This document shows, piece after piece, positions 31,621 to 36,564 of a stretch of DNA of 40,263 bases. Position 1 is the stretch's first letter. Every line of letters starts with the position of its first letter. Made by a program: the position numbers and the translations under genes. The notes beneath the pieces were generated by a model, which saw nothing but the letters and a program-made list of their open reading frames with translations, was not told where the DNA came from and ran no database searches. The stretch is from Myxococcales bacterium (GTDB lineage: Bacteria; Myxococcota_A; Polyangia; GCA-2747355). The DNA lies in assembly GCA_020431405.1 (NCBI GenBank), contig JAGQIK010000585.1, positions 1 through 40,263 on the forward strand. The letters run 5' to 3'.

Positions 31621-33012
31621 ATGGCATCCGAAGGCCTTATCTACGGCATCGACGACAAGCCGCCGCTGATCGAAACGATCGGTCTCGGCTTTCAGCACTA
31701 CCTGACGATGTTCGGCTCGACGCTGGCGATCCCGTATCTCGTCGGCGGCTACATCGGGCTGCCCAAGACCGACCAAGCCTTCGGCTGGCTCATCGGCACG
31801 CTGTTCTTCGTCAGCGGCATCACCACGCTGCTGCAGACGACGCTCGGCAACCGGCTGCCGATCATTCAGGGCGGCACCTTCTCGTTTCTCGGCCCGACCA
31901 AAGGGCTCTGTCAGAGCAAGGCGCTCGCCCACGCCTCGTGGCAGCTGCGCATGCAGAACGTGCAAGGCGCGATCATCTCGGGCGCCTTCGTCGAGATCTT
32001 TCTCGGCTTCACCGGCCTGCTCGGACGGCTGCTGCGCTCCATCGGCCCGATCACCATCGCACCCACCATCGCCCTCATCGGCCTCAGCCTCTACGAGTAC
32101 GGCGCGCCCAAGGCGGGCACGCATTGGGGCATCGGCGCGCTGACCATCGGGCTGATCATCCTCTTCTCGCAGTACCTGCGCCGCACGCACCGCATCTTCG
32201 AGCTGTTTCCGATCCTGCTCGCGATCCTCATCGCCTGGGGCACCGCGGCGATCCTGACGGTCACCGGCGTGTTCGGCCCCGGCCATCCCGCGCACGTCTC
32301 CACGGCGGCGCTCGCCGTCGCCCCGTGGTTCCGGCTGCCCTACCCGGGGCAGTGGGGCATGCCCAAGTTTTCGCTGCCCGGCTTCGTGACGTTTCTCGCC
32401 GGCTACCTGTCGTCCATCGTCGAGTCGGTGGGCGACTACTACGCCTGCGCGCGCCTCGCCGGCGCCGGCATCCCCACCAAACAGATGATCAACCGAGGCA
32501 TCGGCATGGAGGGCGTGGGCTGTCTCGTCGCCGGCGCCTTCGGCACGGGCAACGCGACCACGTCCTACAGCGAGAACATCGGCGCCATCGGCCTGACGCG
32601 TGTGGGCAGCCGCGTCGTCGTGCAGGCGGGCGCGATCCTGATGCTGGTGCTCGGCGCCGTAGGCAAGTTCGGCGCGCTGTTCGCCACCGTGCCCGACCCC
32701 ATCGTCGGCGGCATGTACTGCGCGATGTTCGGCATGATCGCCGCCGTAGGCCTCTCCAACCTGCAGTTCGTCGACCTCAACTCGGCGCGCAACCTCTTCA
32801 TCCTCGGCTTCGCGTTCTTCATGGGCCTCTCGCTGCCGATCTACGTCGTGGCCCACCCGCTGAGCTTCGACCCGCAGTGGCTAGCCGACATCATCAACAT
32901 CCTCGGCCGCAAAGAAGCCGGCATGGCTGTCGCCGCGCTCATCGCCGTGCTGCTCGACAACACCATCCCAGGCACCCCGGAAGAGCGCGGCCTGAGCGGC
33001 TGGCACGGGTAA
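31621..33012 (+). CDS. Nucleobase:cation symporter-2 family permease (xanthine/uracil type)
   Basis: Inner-membrane permease of 463 residues with about 12-14 hydrophobic helices. NCS2/NAT-family marks include IGLGFQHYLTMFGSTLAIP, IIQGGTFSFLGP, SVGDYYACARLAGAG, and the signature loop YSENIGAIGLTRVGS, which matches the conserved [QEP]-N-x-G-x4-T-[RKG] motif. It imports purine or pyrimidine bases with protons or sodium; the exact base is not fixed by these motifs. A dihydropyrimidinase gene lies downstream on the other strand, pointing to base catabolism. It is followed by the long structured non-coding region, which could be its 3' UTR. An out-of-frame ATG at 31613 is not used. Confidence 0.9.
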   Translation: MASEGLIYGIDDKPPLIETIGLGFQHYLTMFGSTLAIPYLVGGYIGLPKTDQAFGWLIGTLFFVSGITTLLQTTLGNRLPIIQGGTFSFLGPTKGLCQSKALAHASWQLRMQNVQGAIISGAFVEIFLGFTGLLGRLLRSIGPITIAPTIALIGLSLYEYGAPKAGTHWGIGALTIGLIILFSQYLRRTHRIFELFPILLAILIAWGTAAILTVTGVFGPGHPAHVSTAALAVAPWFRLPYPGQWGMPKFSLPGFVTFLAGYLSSIVESVGDYYACARLAGAGIPTKQMINRGIGMEGVGCLVAGAFGTGNATTSYSENIGAIGLTRVGSRVVVQAGAILMLVLGAVGKFGALFATVPDPIVGGMYCAMFGMIAAVGLSNLQFVDLNSARNLFILGFAFFMGLSLPIYVVAHPLSFDPQWLADIINILGRKEAGMAVAALIAVLLDNTIPGTPEERGLSGWHG

Positions 33013-33207
33013 GCGGCGGCCCTACACATCGGGCAAGATCCCACGACGGGGCACCATAGCGCCAAGATTTCATAGCGCTAGACTTGCCCACGCGCGCCAA
33101 CTCAATAAACTCGATCTCATCTCGACGGGAAATTCATACGCAGGATTTCCGAATGCGTCGGGCCCCGAGCAGGGCTCTACGGCGGTCCTCCTCGGTTTCG
33201 CGGGCCA

Positions 33208-33227
33208 CGCTTTTCACGTGAAGAGCG
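33208..33227. promoter_or_regulatory. 20-bp palindrome, possible operator
   Basis: CGCTTTTCACGTGAAGAGCG is symmetric at every position except one T/G pair, with a perfect 10-bp centre TTCACGTGAA. It lies about 40 bases upstream of the long Shine-Dalgarno. Perfect symmetry with no loop favours a protein-binding DNA site over an RNA hairpin. Confidence 0.45.
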
Positions 33228-33264
33228 AAACGCAAATACTGGGTCCCGCGTGTTGGCTTCGCCG

Positions 33265-33280
33265 GAAAGGAGGTGATCCA
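33265..33280 (+). promoter_or_regulatory. Ultra-long Shine-Dalgarno (16 bases complementary to the 16S 3' tail)
   Basis: GAAAGGAGGTGATCCA is the exact complement of TGGATCACCTCCTTTC, the usual 3' end of bacterial 16S rRNA and its immediate extension. Seven bases separate GGAGG from the TTG at 33281, the ideal distance. The same AGGAGGT (33268-33274) can pair with ACCTCCT (33317-33323). Confidence 0.6.
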
Positions 33281-33325
33281 TTGTCTAGTCTGAAACCGGT
33301 GATCTGCGAGGTGGTGACCTCCTAG
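33281..33325 (+). CDS. Possible 14-codon leader peptide (MSSLKPVICEVVTS)
   Basis: A TTG-initiated frame 7 bases after a near-perfect Shine-Dalgarno encodes MSSLKPVICEVVTS and stops at TAG 33323. Support is the ribosome-binding site alone; the frame is too short for codon statistics. Its last codons and stop form the strand that can mask the Shine-Dalgarno, and GAGGT (33308-33312) can instead pair with ACCTC (33317-33321), so two exclusive foldings exist. The Lys-Pro-x-x-x-Glu pattern is loosely like PqqA-type precursors but lacks the Glu-x3-Tyr pair, so that assignment is not made. A leader peptide or a non-translated ribosome-binding decoy are both possible. Confidence 0.3.
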   Translation: MSSLKPVICEVVTS

Positions 33326-33421
33326 GCTGTGACTAAACGATGTTCAAGCGGCTCTGCCGCACCCTGTTTGAAGGGCGCCGCAGAGTAAAGGAAGGCCTGG
33401 GAGAGACCCAGGCACCACCGC

Positions 33422-33583
33422 AGCCCCGACGACTCCCGCACATCACCGGCGGGACCGCATAGCTCCGGCACGAGGCCACGGTCGCAAGTGCGACCGAGCG
33501 TCAATCTAATCGATTGATTCGACCGCTGACGCGGTCGAAATGGCCGCCGGGGCGTGTGGAGAAATCGTCGGGGCTTTTTTTTT
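33422..33583 (+). terminator. Rho-independent-type terminator formed by a long-range closing helix
   Basis: AGCCCCGACGA (33422-33432) pairs perfectly with TCGTCGGGGCT (33565-33575), followed at once by nine T residues (33575-33583). There is no local left arm, so the terminator stem must enclose three internal hairpins. It would end plus-strand transcripts before the convergent gene at 33641. Confidence 0.6.
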
Positions 33584-33640
33584 GCCCGCCGCCCACTAGG
33601 CCGCGCACCCGCAGCCGGCGCGGCGCGCCGAGCGCCCGAG

Positions 33641-34243
33641 CTACTGGAAGTAGCCGCTGAGGCGCTGCTCGAGCTCGACGCGGTCGAACTCGGAGACGAC
33701 CAGCGGCGACTCCTTGGGCGCACGCAACGTCGGCTTACGCGCGCTCTCGCGGTAGTGAATCGCCGTCTGCTCGGTGTCGACTACCAGCCGGCAGTCGCCC
33801 ACCACGTAGCAGGGCTCGCGCTCTTCGAGGAAGTAGGCGTTCCACTCGAAGCTGTCCATGCGCACGTGCGTCAGATCGGCATCGCACTCTTTGCGCAGCG
33901 CGCGCAGCACGTCGAAGGAGAACGAGTCGGCCGAGCCCGACGACGTCTGATACTCGTGCTTGAGCATCAGGTAGGCGTTGTAGCTGACGACCTCGATGCT
34001 GCCGGTGCCGTCCTCGACAACGAAGTTGTTGGCGCGCGCGAAGCTCAGCTCGAGGCGCCGGCCGGAGTTGGTGACGGCGCGACAGTAGATCTGGTAGGCG
34101 ACGACGTTGACGCCGAGCAACGGCGACTGGATCTTCTTCAGCGCGCGCGCGCGGCCCTTGACTGCCATCAGGCCTTCGCGCGCCTCACTGATTTTGCAAA
34201 GCGGCGTCTCTTTGACCAGGCGCTTGACGGCCGCGAGCGTCAT
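33641..34243 (-). CDS. Hypothetical protein downstream of dihydropyrimidinase
   Basis: Cytoplasmic protein of 200 residues with no signal peptide or membrane helix. It begins MTLAAVKRLVKETPLCKISEAREG. The middle contains FVVEDGTGSIEVVSYNAYL and later EWNAYFLEEREPCYVVGDCRLV, a beta-rich pattern that recalls the GIDE-type (PF12483) domain, where a DGTG turn is followed by an EExEPxYVxG strand. That resemblance is weak and by eye. It starts 13 bases after the dihydropyrimidinase stop, so the two are likely one operon, but no mechanistic link is evident. It is convergent with the structured RNA region. Confidence 0.65.
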   Translation of the reverse strand: MTLAAVKRLVKETPLCKISEAREGLMAVKGRARALKKIQSPLLGVNVVAYQIYCRAVTNSGRRLELSFARANNFVVEDGTGSIEVVSYNAYLMLKHEYQTSSGSADSFSFDVLRALRKECDADLTHVRMDSFEWNAYFLEEREPCYVVGDCRLVVDTEQTAIHYRESARKPTLRAPKESPLVVSEFDRVELEQRLSGYFQ

Positions 34244-34256
34244 CAGCGCCGCGCTG

Positions 34257-35648
34257 CTAGAAATGGGTCGGCTCGCGCTGCAGGAAGCGCCCCCGCCCCA
34301 CCGTACCGACGAACTTGCCGTCGCGGGCGGCGACCGCGCCGCGCACGGTGACCACCTCCGGATAGCCGGTGACCTTCCAGCCCTCGAACGCGCTGTAATC
34401 GACGTTCATCGTCTGCTGCTTCTGCGAGATCGTGGTCTGACGCTTGGGGTCCCAGATCACGAGATCGGCGTCGGCGCCGAGCTGGATGGTGCCCTTGCGC
34501 GGGAAGAGCCCGAAGATCTTGGCCGCCTGTGTGCTCGCCGAATCGACGAAGCGGTGCAGGTCGAGACGTCCCTTGGCCACGCCCTCCGAGTAGAGCAGCT
34601 TCACGCGCTCCTCGAGCGCCGGGATGCCGTTGGGGATCTTGCGGAAGTCGTCTTTGCCCATCGGCTTCTGGTCGCCGTAGTCGAACGGCGCGTGGTCCGT
34701 GGCGACCGTCGAGATCAGCCCGTGCTTGACGCCCGCCCACAGCACGTCCTGGTTGCGCTTGTCGCGCAGCGGCGGCGACATGACGAACTTGGCCGCCTCG
34801 AAGCCGTCGCGCTCGGCGTAGGTCATGTCGAGTAGCAGGAACTGGATCAGCGTCTCGACCCACGCGTTGACGCCGCGATGCTTGGCGCGGCGCGCGTTGG
34901 CGAGCGCCTCTTCGCACGACAGGTGAACGACGTAGACGTGCGCGTCGTGCACCTCGGCGAAGGTCATCAGGTGGTTGGTGCCCTCGGCTTCGACCAGCGG
35001 CGGGCGGCTGTGGTAGTGCCACTCGGGCTCGACCTTGCCCTCGTCGAAGAGGCGCTGCGACATCTCGGTGACGAGCGTCTCGTTCTCGCAGTGCGCGGTG
35101 GTGATCACGCCGAGCTGCTTGGCGAGCTTGAGCGTGTTGTAGAGCTCGCCGTCGTCGATGCCGAAGGCACCCTTGTAGGCGAGGAAGATCTTGAACGAGC
35201 CGACACCTTTGCCGACGATCTCGCGCGTCTGCGCCTCGACCTCCTCGTCGTAGCGCGTCACGGCGAGGTGGTAGGTGTAGTCGCAGGCCGAGCTGCCTTC
35301 GCTCTGCTTGTTCCACGTCTCGAACGCGGCGAGCGGCTGCTCGCTTTTGCCTGGGATGCAGAAGTCGATGAAGGTCGTGGTGCCGCCGAGGATCGCCGCC
35401 TTGCTGCCGCTGGTGTAGCTGTCCTTGGCGTAGGTGCCCATGAACGGCAGGTAGATGTGCGTGTGCGGATCGATGAAGCCGGGGAAGACGTACTTACCGC
35501 TGGCGTCGATGACCTCGGTGCCGGGCGGGAGCTGCGAGGCGTCGATGTTCTTGTCGATGCGGGTGATCGTCTCGTTCTCGGCGTAGACGTCCGCCGTGTA
35601 GCGCGCCGACGCGGTGACGACCTCGCCACCTTTGACCAGTAGTCCCAT
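34257..35648 (-). CDS. hydA: Dihydropyrimidinase / D-hydantoinase
   Basis: Zinc amidohydrolase of 463 residues, opening the ring of dihydropyrimidines (reductive uracil/thymine pathway) or 5-substituted hydantoins. Motifs: metal-binding GFIDPHTHIYLPF, the carbamylated Lys region SFKIFLAYKGAFG, TAHCEN, VVHLSCEEAL, and the Asp motif VATDHAPFDYGDQKP. The ATG at 35648 follows GGGAGG by 6 bases; the frame stays open far upstream across the lipoprotein gene on the other strand, but that part is not coding. Together with the nearby nucleobase permease it suggests pyrimidine salvage or use as nitrogen source. The usual partners (dihydropyrimidine dehydrogenase, beta-ureidopropionase) are not in the window. 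Confidence 0.93.
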   Translation of the reverse strand: MGLLVKGGEVVTASARYTADVYAENETITRIDKNIDASQLPPGTEVIDASGKYVFPGFIDPHTHIYLPFMGTYAKDSYTSGSKAAILGGTTTFIDFCIPGKSEQPLAAFETWNKQSEGSSACDYTYHLAVTRYDEEVEAQTREIVGKGVGSFKIFLAYKGAFGIDDGELYNTLKLAKQLGVITTAHCENETLVTEMSQRLFDEGKVEPEWHYHSRPPLVEAEGTNHLMTFAEVHDAHVYVVHLSCEEALANARRAKHRGVNAWVETLIQFLLLDMTYAERDGFEAAKFVMSPPLRDKRNQDVLWAGVKHGLISTVATDHAPFDYGDQKPMGKDDFRKIPNGIPALEERVKLLYSEGVAKGRLDLHRFVDSASTQAAKIFGLFPRKGTIQLGADADLVIWDPKRQTTISQKQQTMNVDYSAFEGWKVTGYPEVVTVRGAVAARDGKFVGTVGRGRFLQREPTHF

Positions 35649-35757
35649 GGATGCCTCCCCGATGGCTTGGCGTGAGGGGCGAGTATATCGCGACGCGCGC
35701 GAGTCAGGCGCATCGACTACAATGTTGGGCGCGACCATCGCAGCAGCGGAGGCCTTG

Positions 35758-36564
35758 ATGACTAAGAGTCGCTTACTAGCTGTTTTTGCTGTGCTAATCC
35801 TCTTTACCGGCGCGTGCTCGGACAAGCTGCCGCCGGTCGGAGACGGCGGAAAGTCCGACACCGCAACCAACGACGCCCGCACCGACGGCTCCAATCCCGG
35901 CCCTGACCAGAGCACCCCCGGCGACACCGGCACGCCAGGCGACAACGGCACACCGGGCGACACCGCGGCGCCCACCGACGGCGACATCGGCACCCCGGCC
36001 GACACCGGCACGCCTGGCGACACCACCACCCCGGCCGACACCGGCTCGCCCGTCGACACCGGGACGCCCAGTGACGGCAACATCGGCACCTGCGGCGCGC
36101 TGCGTCTTTGCGCTGCCGGCTACTTCTGCGAGTACAACACCTGCACGCCGACCAAGGCGACGATCGGCCAGTGCCGTCTCATCCCCACCGGAACCTGCGC
36201 CGCCACGACCAAGCTCGAGTGCGGGTGCAACGGCGTGACGTATTTCAATACCTGTCTACGGCAGCAGGCAAAGGTTAGCAGCGTGGCGACGGGCGTGTGC
36301 TCGACCACCGCAGCCACCTGCGGCGGCATCACATCGACAAAGTGTGCCGTCAAAGGGACCGTTTGCGTCCGGCAGGGCAGCTCGAGCTGTCCGACGATAC
36401 TTGCTACCGGAAAGTGCTGGGTGCTGCCAGCGACCTGCTCGAGCAAGGACAGCACTGGTTATCGCGACTGTTCAGCCTCCCCCGCCAAGTGCGCCTCGCT
36501 CTGCACAGCAGCCAAGTCTGGGCGCTACTACGCCGATGCGTCCTGCTTGATCAAGTTTCCCTAG
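35758..36564 (+). CDS. Lipoprotein with PGDTGT repeats and a Kazal-like domain
   Basis: Lipoprotein of 268 residues. The lipobox is LFTGACSD (Cys20); GGAGG lies about 6 bases before the ATG. A Thr/Pro/Gly/Asp spacer (about 50-108) is built from PGDTGT-type repeats encoded by imperfect 12-18-bp DNA repeats (about 35920-36075). The Cys-rich exposed part contains a Kazal-like core: CGCNGVTYFNTCLRQQAKV ending in GVC, with the cysteine spacing of Kazal-type protease inhibitors, and further cysteine pairs after it. This suggests a surface-anchored inhibitor or binding protein; inhibition is inference from the fold. It is divergent from dihydropyrimidinase with a gap of 109 bases. Confidence 0.78.
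   Translation: MTKSRLLAVFAVLILFTGACSDKLPPVGDGGKSDTATNDARTDGSNPGPDQSTPGDTGTPGDNGTPGDTAAPTDGDIGTPADTGTPGDTTTPADTGSPVDTGTPSDGNIGTCGALRLCAAGYFCEYNTCTPTKATIGQCRLIPTGTCAATTKLECGCNGVTYFNTCLRQQAKVSSVATGVCSTTAATCGGITSTKCAVKGTVCVRQGSSSCPTILATGKCWVLPATCSSKDSTGYRDCSASPAKCASLCTAAKSGRYYADASCLIKFP
35920..36075 (+). repeat. Degenerate in-frame repeats coding PGDTGT/PADTGT
   Basis: Imperfect 12-18-bp units such as CCCGGCGACACCGGCACG repeat about eight times within the lipoprotein gene and code the Thr/Pro/Asp/Gly spacer between lipobox and cysteine-rich domain. Confidence 0.65.

Follow-up and report, generated by a model that had tools for sequence, protein, structure and literature searches.

CC2171 (RF01867), found in Caulobacter and other Alphaproteobacteria, is a free-standing RNA gene. 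It has GAAAGGAGGUGAUCCAnUGUCU at its 5′ end, where a complement of the 16S 3′ end is joined to a start codon, together with a short open reading frame (sORF) and a helix that joins the sORF to the bases before the terminator. In its Rfam consensus, early sORF bases CAUuGuC pair with GaCaAUG just before the terminator. A CC2171 locus has been listed among the intergenic small RNAs (sRNAs) of Mesorhizobium huakuii (PMC5596092), Rfam 15 gives one additional covarying pair for the family (PMC11701678), and two earlier predicted non-coding RNAs of Caulobacter, CC2171 not necessarily among them, proved to be translated (PMC4117421). In the literature, we found no described function for CC2171. Two other kinds of RNA invite comparison: leader-peptide attenuators such as the trp and speF leaders, in which translation of a short ORF disrupts a helix beside an intrinsic terminator, and dual-function sRNAs such as SgrS and RNAIII, i.e., structured free-standing RNAs with a translated sORF.

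Here, we analyzed a stretch of 40,263 nucleotides from a Myxococcales bacterium (hereafter, the window), in which a first-pass annotation had placed an undescribed structured RNA at 33208–33583. This RNA is genuinely structured but not purely non-coding, as it carries an extreme Shine-Dalgarno (SD) sequence and a short ORF with start, frame, and stop kept in relatives.

Results

The RNA lies in a gap of 628 bases (33013–33640) between a uracil/xanthine permease gene on the + strand (PF00860) and a convergent gene on the − strand without a Pfam family, the setting that the first-pass annotation had described. All six stems listed there, including the 11-bp helix followed by T9, were found in place (Table 1), and the fold was, as had been anticipated, better than that of dinucleotide shuffles: −183.8 vs −141.5 ± 6.9 for 33208–33583 (z −6.2, 0/100), and z −7.9 for the likely transcript 33256–33583 (0/100 shuffles as good). 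The beginning of the annotated region needs a correction in that a palindrome at 33208–33227 (CGCTTTTCACGTGAAGAGCG) is probably located upstream of the RNA start; it overlaps the candidate −35 hexamer and is possibly an operator rather than a part of the RNA. A consensus promoter scan returned none in the region at its threshold. From sequence features, we infer an RNA start at about 33247–33256 and an end at 33583, most likely defining a free-standing gene with an RNA product about 330 nt long. The permease, the small gene without a Pfam family, and a dihydropyrimidinase-like amidohydrolase are clustered at 31621–36089, which suggests a pyrimidine uptake and breakdown cluster.

Table 1 Features of the RNA locus, in window coordinates.
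Feature	Coordinates	Strand	Remarks
Candidate promoter TTCACG, 16 nt, AATACT	33213..33240	+	Each hexamer 4/6 matches, read from the sequence; weak
Super-SD AAAGGAGGTGATCCA	33266–33280	+	15-nt complement of the usual 16S rRNA 3′ end UGGAUCACCUCCUUU
sORF, TTG start, 14 codons, LSSLKPVICEVVTS-stop	33281–33325	+	Start, frame, and stop kept in relatives
P1 5′ strand GGTGGTG	33310–33316	+	Within the last sORF codons; pair probabilities in the window 0.72–0.80
Internal hairpin enclosed by P1	33351–33386	+	−20.2 kcal/mol for the stem 33352–33385; window fold only
Internal hairpin GCCTGGG-AGAGA-CCCAGGC	33395–33413	+	−12.9 kcal/mol; directly before the P1 3′ strand
P1 3′ strand CACCACC	33413–33419	+	Separated from the terminator helix by 2 nt
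P3 (terminator outer helix) 5′ arm AGCCCCGACGA	33422–33432	+	Pair probabilities 0.82–1.0
Hairpin inside P3	33434–33454	+	−9.9 kcal/mol
Stem inside P3	33455–33469/33546–33559	+	Window fold
Hairpin inside P3	33479–33496	+	−12.0 kcal/mol
Stem inside P3	33500–33518	+	Window fold
Stem inside P3	33518–33539	+	−14.8 kcal/mol; 33519–33538 in the window fold; overlaps dispersed palindrome 33512–33543
P3 3′ arm TCGTCGGGGCT	33565–33575	+	11-bp helix with 33422–33432
U tract, T9	33575–33583	+	With P3, forms the intrinsic terminator

While the stems had been recognized, three elements had been missed, namely the super-SD, the sORF, and the helix that we term P1. The TTG start codon stands directly 3′ of the super-SD, and AAAGGAGGTGATCC occurs a single time in the 11.2-Mb assembly. 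Because neither a 16S gene nor a matching 16S 3′ end was recovered in this assembly, the complementarity of the window copy rests on the near-universal 16S end, which a genome from the window's class (L148) shows directly. Parts of the SD are weakly paired within a hairpin of the MFE structure (33259–33265/33296–33302), making access to the SD uncertain; by its sequence, the window copy would be bound by 30S subunits and translated. A second ORF, with an ATG start (33342–33464), is not preceded by an SD.

One of the annotated stems turned out not to be specific to this RNA. The palindrome at 33512–33543 (28–32 nt, TTCGACCGCTGACGCGGTCGAA core) recurs nearly unchanged in at least 24 further places on other contigs of this genome, in one case as two copies 34 nt apart, and is a REP-like dispersed repeat within the terminator domain. 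The stem at 33518–33539 is a copy of this repeat.

Next, we looked for relatives of the RNA. Since a BLASTN search of the region against 59 related genomes yielded only palindromes of the window's own genome, relatives were sought by motif. Most of them escaped the strict motifs (CCANTGTC or NTGNCNNG) and were recovered by a relaxed one (AAAGGAGGTGATCNNNTG), which matched in 27 of 379 genomes from the window's phylum, among them most of those sampled from one family. Most of these matches represent the same RNA. Within the class, matches were obtained in 4 of 290 genomes and the RNA itself in 2, both from the window's order, and the RNA is therefore not universally needed. As the search motif guarantees an SD in every relative, the conservation of the SD is partly ascertained. 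We left L016, L174 (in a long ORF), and L184 (with the same variant motif as L174) out of all counts. The first of these, a gammaproteobacterial-type RNA beside a TonB receptor and a transposase-like fragment, comes from a short contig in a bin assigned to the window's phylum (G184); given these gammaproteobacteria-like neighbors, it is probably contamination or foreign DNA in its bin, or else a recent transfer.

Read side by side, L146 from the window's order and L158–L182 from the phylum displayed the same order of parts: the super-SD, a GTG or TTG start, an sORF that usually ends in EVVxx and a stop codon, a variable middle part of the RNA, then CA[CT][CT]ACCG just before the CCCC-rich arm of a multibranched terminator, and a U tract. 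The genes next to the RNA differ among relatives. The distance from the start codon to GAGGT took several values between 24 and 57 nt and was divisible by 3 in all but one of 26 members (25 of 26), with the stop usually four to five codons after GAG, for ORFs of 13–24 codons. Within codons 2–9 of the 15-codon members, we counted 157 non-synonymous vs 50 synonymous codon changes. Start, frame, and stop are conserved among relatives and the peptide sequence is not, a pattern to be expected if the passage of a ribosome matters rather than the peptide, although this argument is indirect. In the phylum relatives (e.g., L162 and L164), the end of the sORF holds a conserved GGTGAGGTGGTG that is itself SD-like and, at a distance of about 12 nt from the stop codon, could pause a terminating ribosome.

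Compensatory changes among homologs, which the first-pass annotation had expected of a genuine RNA, were present in both P1 and P3. P1 is the helix with the best evolutionary support: across 24 distinct sequences, 99.4% of cells were paired, with 15 compensatory cells and compensatory changes in 5 of 7 pairs. Variants in relatives include GGTGACG/CGTCACC, GGTGATG/CATCACC, GGTGGTC/GACCACC, GGTGTTA/TAACACC, GATGGTG/CACTATC, and GGTCGCG/CGCGACC. The 3′ strand was located through its ACC motif and the terminator 3′ of it, and this anchoring constrains the first three pairs, leaving the other four free. Shuffled controls did as well in 0/500 cases for the cell, type, and score measures and in 5/500 for the count of pairs (counts rather than probabilities, as the sequences are related), and sliding the partner strand reduced pairing to 26–82%. 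Across members, the P1 3′ strand is found 1–3 nt before the multibranched intrinsic terminator. By eye, L146, L178, L179, and L180 have hairpins of differing sequence at the position of 33395–33413.

For P3, MAFFT introduced gaps in the composites, and covariation was hence scored by scripted swapping of arms between members. In 19 members, 165 of 171 cells paired, a number inflated by the choice of arms for best pairing, compared to 101.7 ± 6.3 after swapping (0/5000, again a count among related sequences and not a probability).

We then compared the RNA to described families. At gathering score, Rfam 15 yielded nothing anywhere in the window, and hence none of the known large structured RNAs (RNase P, tmRNA, SRP, 6S, introns, OLE, and others). 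At permissive E-values, ApoB, snoTBR7, and Ms_IGR-5 were taken as chance matches and CC2171 alone stood out. It scored 21.7 bits (E 0.018 for the region), far short of the 75-bit cut-off, and owed its match almost entirely to GAAAGGAGGUGAUCCAnUGUCU. Across the 11.2-Mb assembly, the top RF01867 match was again the window RNA, although at E 0.07. The earlier statement that no known family fits thus holds at the level of scores, but the 5′ block and the architecture are shared with CC2171. Our literature searches returned no description of the element, sequence matches being 16S-processing oligonucleotides and an unrelated barcode; papers on CcnA and RusT gave no link to the window RNA.

A scan with AAAGGAGGTGATCCANTGTC across one genome per GTDB species recovered at least 118 stretches, against a chance expectation of about two (calculated for 19 fixed bases and 257 Gb searched on both strands). 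The matches listed came mostly from Alphaproteobacteria, and single ones carried the labels Gemmatimonadetes, Nitrospinota, and Gammaproteobacteria; nearly all had a short ORF at the start codon, of 14–33 codons in most, and most had a terminator 120–200 nt after the SD. The orientation of the downstream gene was mixed for the alphaproteobacterial relatives listed (54:50, by a rough ORF rule), whose subtypes keep peptide starts such as VSHC, VSRVILERG, and MSSE. Five of the 20 wider-relative loci tested reached the RF01867 cut-off. A blind helix search over 103 alphaproteobacterial loci gave 51%, not clearly more than the 37–53% in controls (runs of 7 or more), and the claim of a P1 counterpart in these bacteria draws on Rfam's own structure and on subtype patterns read by eye.

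Two groups of these wider relatives had features of their own. In the marine copies L068 and L102 (SAR92/Cellvibrionales), the terminator is reached about 57–63 nt past the SD, ahead of any in-frame stop codon, so that ribosomes would, by sequence, stall on a non-stop mRNA. Rhodobacterales-type copies (such as L065, L022, and L113) carry CATCTCCTT or ACCTCCTTT downstream of the sORF, which can pair with the SD and is possibly a built-in anti-SD.

Discussion

We consider it fairly probable that the window encodes a free-standing regulatory RNA that is translated and serves to capture or sense ribosomes, as a switch or sensor. Its anatomy is well supported by comparative evidence, i.e., covariation in P1 and P3, in-frame conservation, and a free-standing gene. 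Mechanistically, a complement of the full 16S 3′ end placed directly before the start codon would grip a 30S subunit roughly as firmly as is possible for an mRNA. The ribosome would translate the 13–24-codon ORF and stop where the last codons (GAG GTN NTN...) are one strand of P1, which it would have to melt when nearing the stop, as these codons form that strand. At the stop, it would cover the P1 5′ strand, and occupancy would set whether P1 is closed (compact, beside P3) or open. The signal would be the act of translation, not the peptide, and the output may be the titration or sensing of free 30S subunits, or altered RNA stability or target access upon P1 opening.

Several observations could also fit a small mRNA with a functional peptide, whose SD and structures serve high expression and stability: the SD is strong, the frame is conserved with an EVV motif near the C-terminus, and alphaproteobacterial subtypes retain their peptide starts. 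We regard this as unlikely, because changes in codons 2–9 of the 15-codon members are mostly non-synonymous, the conserved GAGGT codons are a P1 strand, and L068 and L102 reach the terminator before any stop codon. That CC2171 is catalogued as an sRNA in Rfam, and that the gene is free-standing with a terminator and no in-frame downstream gene, would be consistent with an ordinary trans-acting base-pairing sRNA whose SD-like stretch serves as a seed or arose by coincidence, with the sORF left unused. However, a seed would not be expected to keep a start codon at a fixed distance or to show triplet-spaced indels as far as GAGGT, and the motif matches the whole 16S end rather than an mRNA motif, so that we find this reading quite doubtful.

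The first-pass annotation had considered a free transcript or the permease 3′ UTR, of which the free transcript is most likely. The RNA does lie downstream of the permease on the same strand, but its super-SD stands about 250 nt away from the permease stop, the next gene is convergent, and relatives flank unrelated genes in either orientation, making a permease 3′ UTR, or an attenuator of the neighbor, highly improbable. Finally, one stem is a dispersed palindrome and the SD is the reverse complement of the 16S end, as would be the case for a non-functional palindrome or REP array, or for a reversed 16S gene fragment. This is scarcely credible, since complementarity to 16S ends after 15 nt, and the covariation of P1 and P3 in two dozen genomes contradicts it.

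Extending the ribosome-capture reading beyond the phylum, we tentatively propose that the window RNA, its phylum relatives, and the CC2171-like alphaproteobacterial RNAs may form one superfamily of ribosome-capturing RNAs. Each would combine a maximal anti-16S sequence with a throw-away sORF and a helix that the ribosome opens next to the terminator, and would serve to sense free 30S subunits or to buffer them. We found no description in the literature of a regulator class that senses or buffers free 30S subunits. If true, many bacteria, among them most of the genomes sampled from one family of the phylum and numerous Alphaproteobacteria, would carry a small RNA gene conserved mainly for the tightest possible grip on the ribosome, offering a concrete way to study the sensing or buffering of free 30S subunits in cells. 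CC2171 would gain a structure and a testable logic, and its catalogued range would appear far too narrow.

Among known systems, leader-peptide attenuators are similar in that translation of a short ORF would disrupt a helix beside an intrinsic terminator, but they need a regulated downstream gene on the same strand, whereas the next gene in the window is convergent and the neighbors of relatives are mixed. The window RNA resembles SgrS and RNAIII as a structured free-standing RNA with an sORF predicted to be translated, yet differs from them in its full complementarity to the 16S end, a peptide that is not conserved, and no known target-pairing seed. Compared to CC2171, it has a different sORF, a multibranched terminator, and about 320 nt instead of about 160–180 nt between the SD and the U tract. 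The CC2171 5′ block GAAAGGAGGUGAUCCAnUG and the start codon recur in the window, where the block reads GGAAAGG... and differs in its first base; this shared 16S-complementary block could be convergent. The helix from the sORF to the pre-terminator bases has its analog in P1, at the end of the sORF instead of its beginning. The window RNA is thus not a CC2171 member by score and, judged by analogy, is alike in architecture: the same kind of 5′ end, an sORF, an sORF-to-terminator helix, and a free-standing gene.
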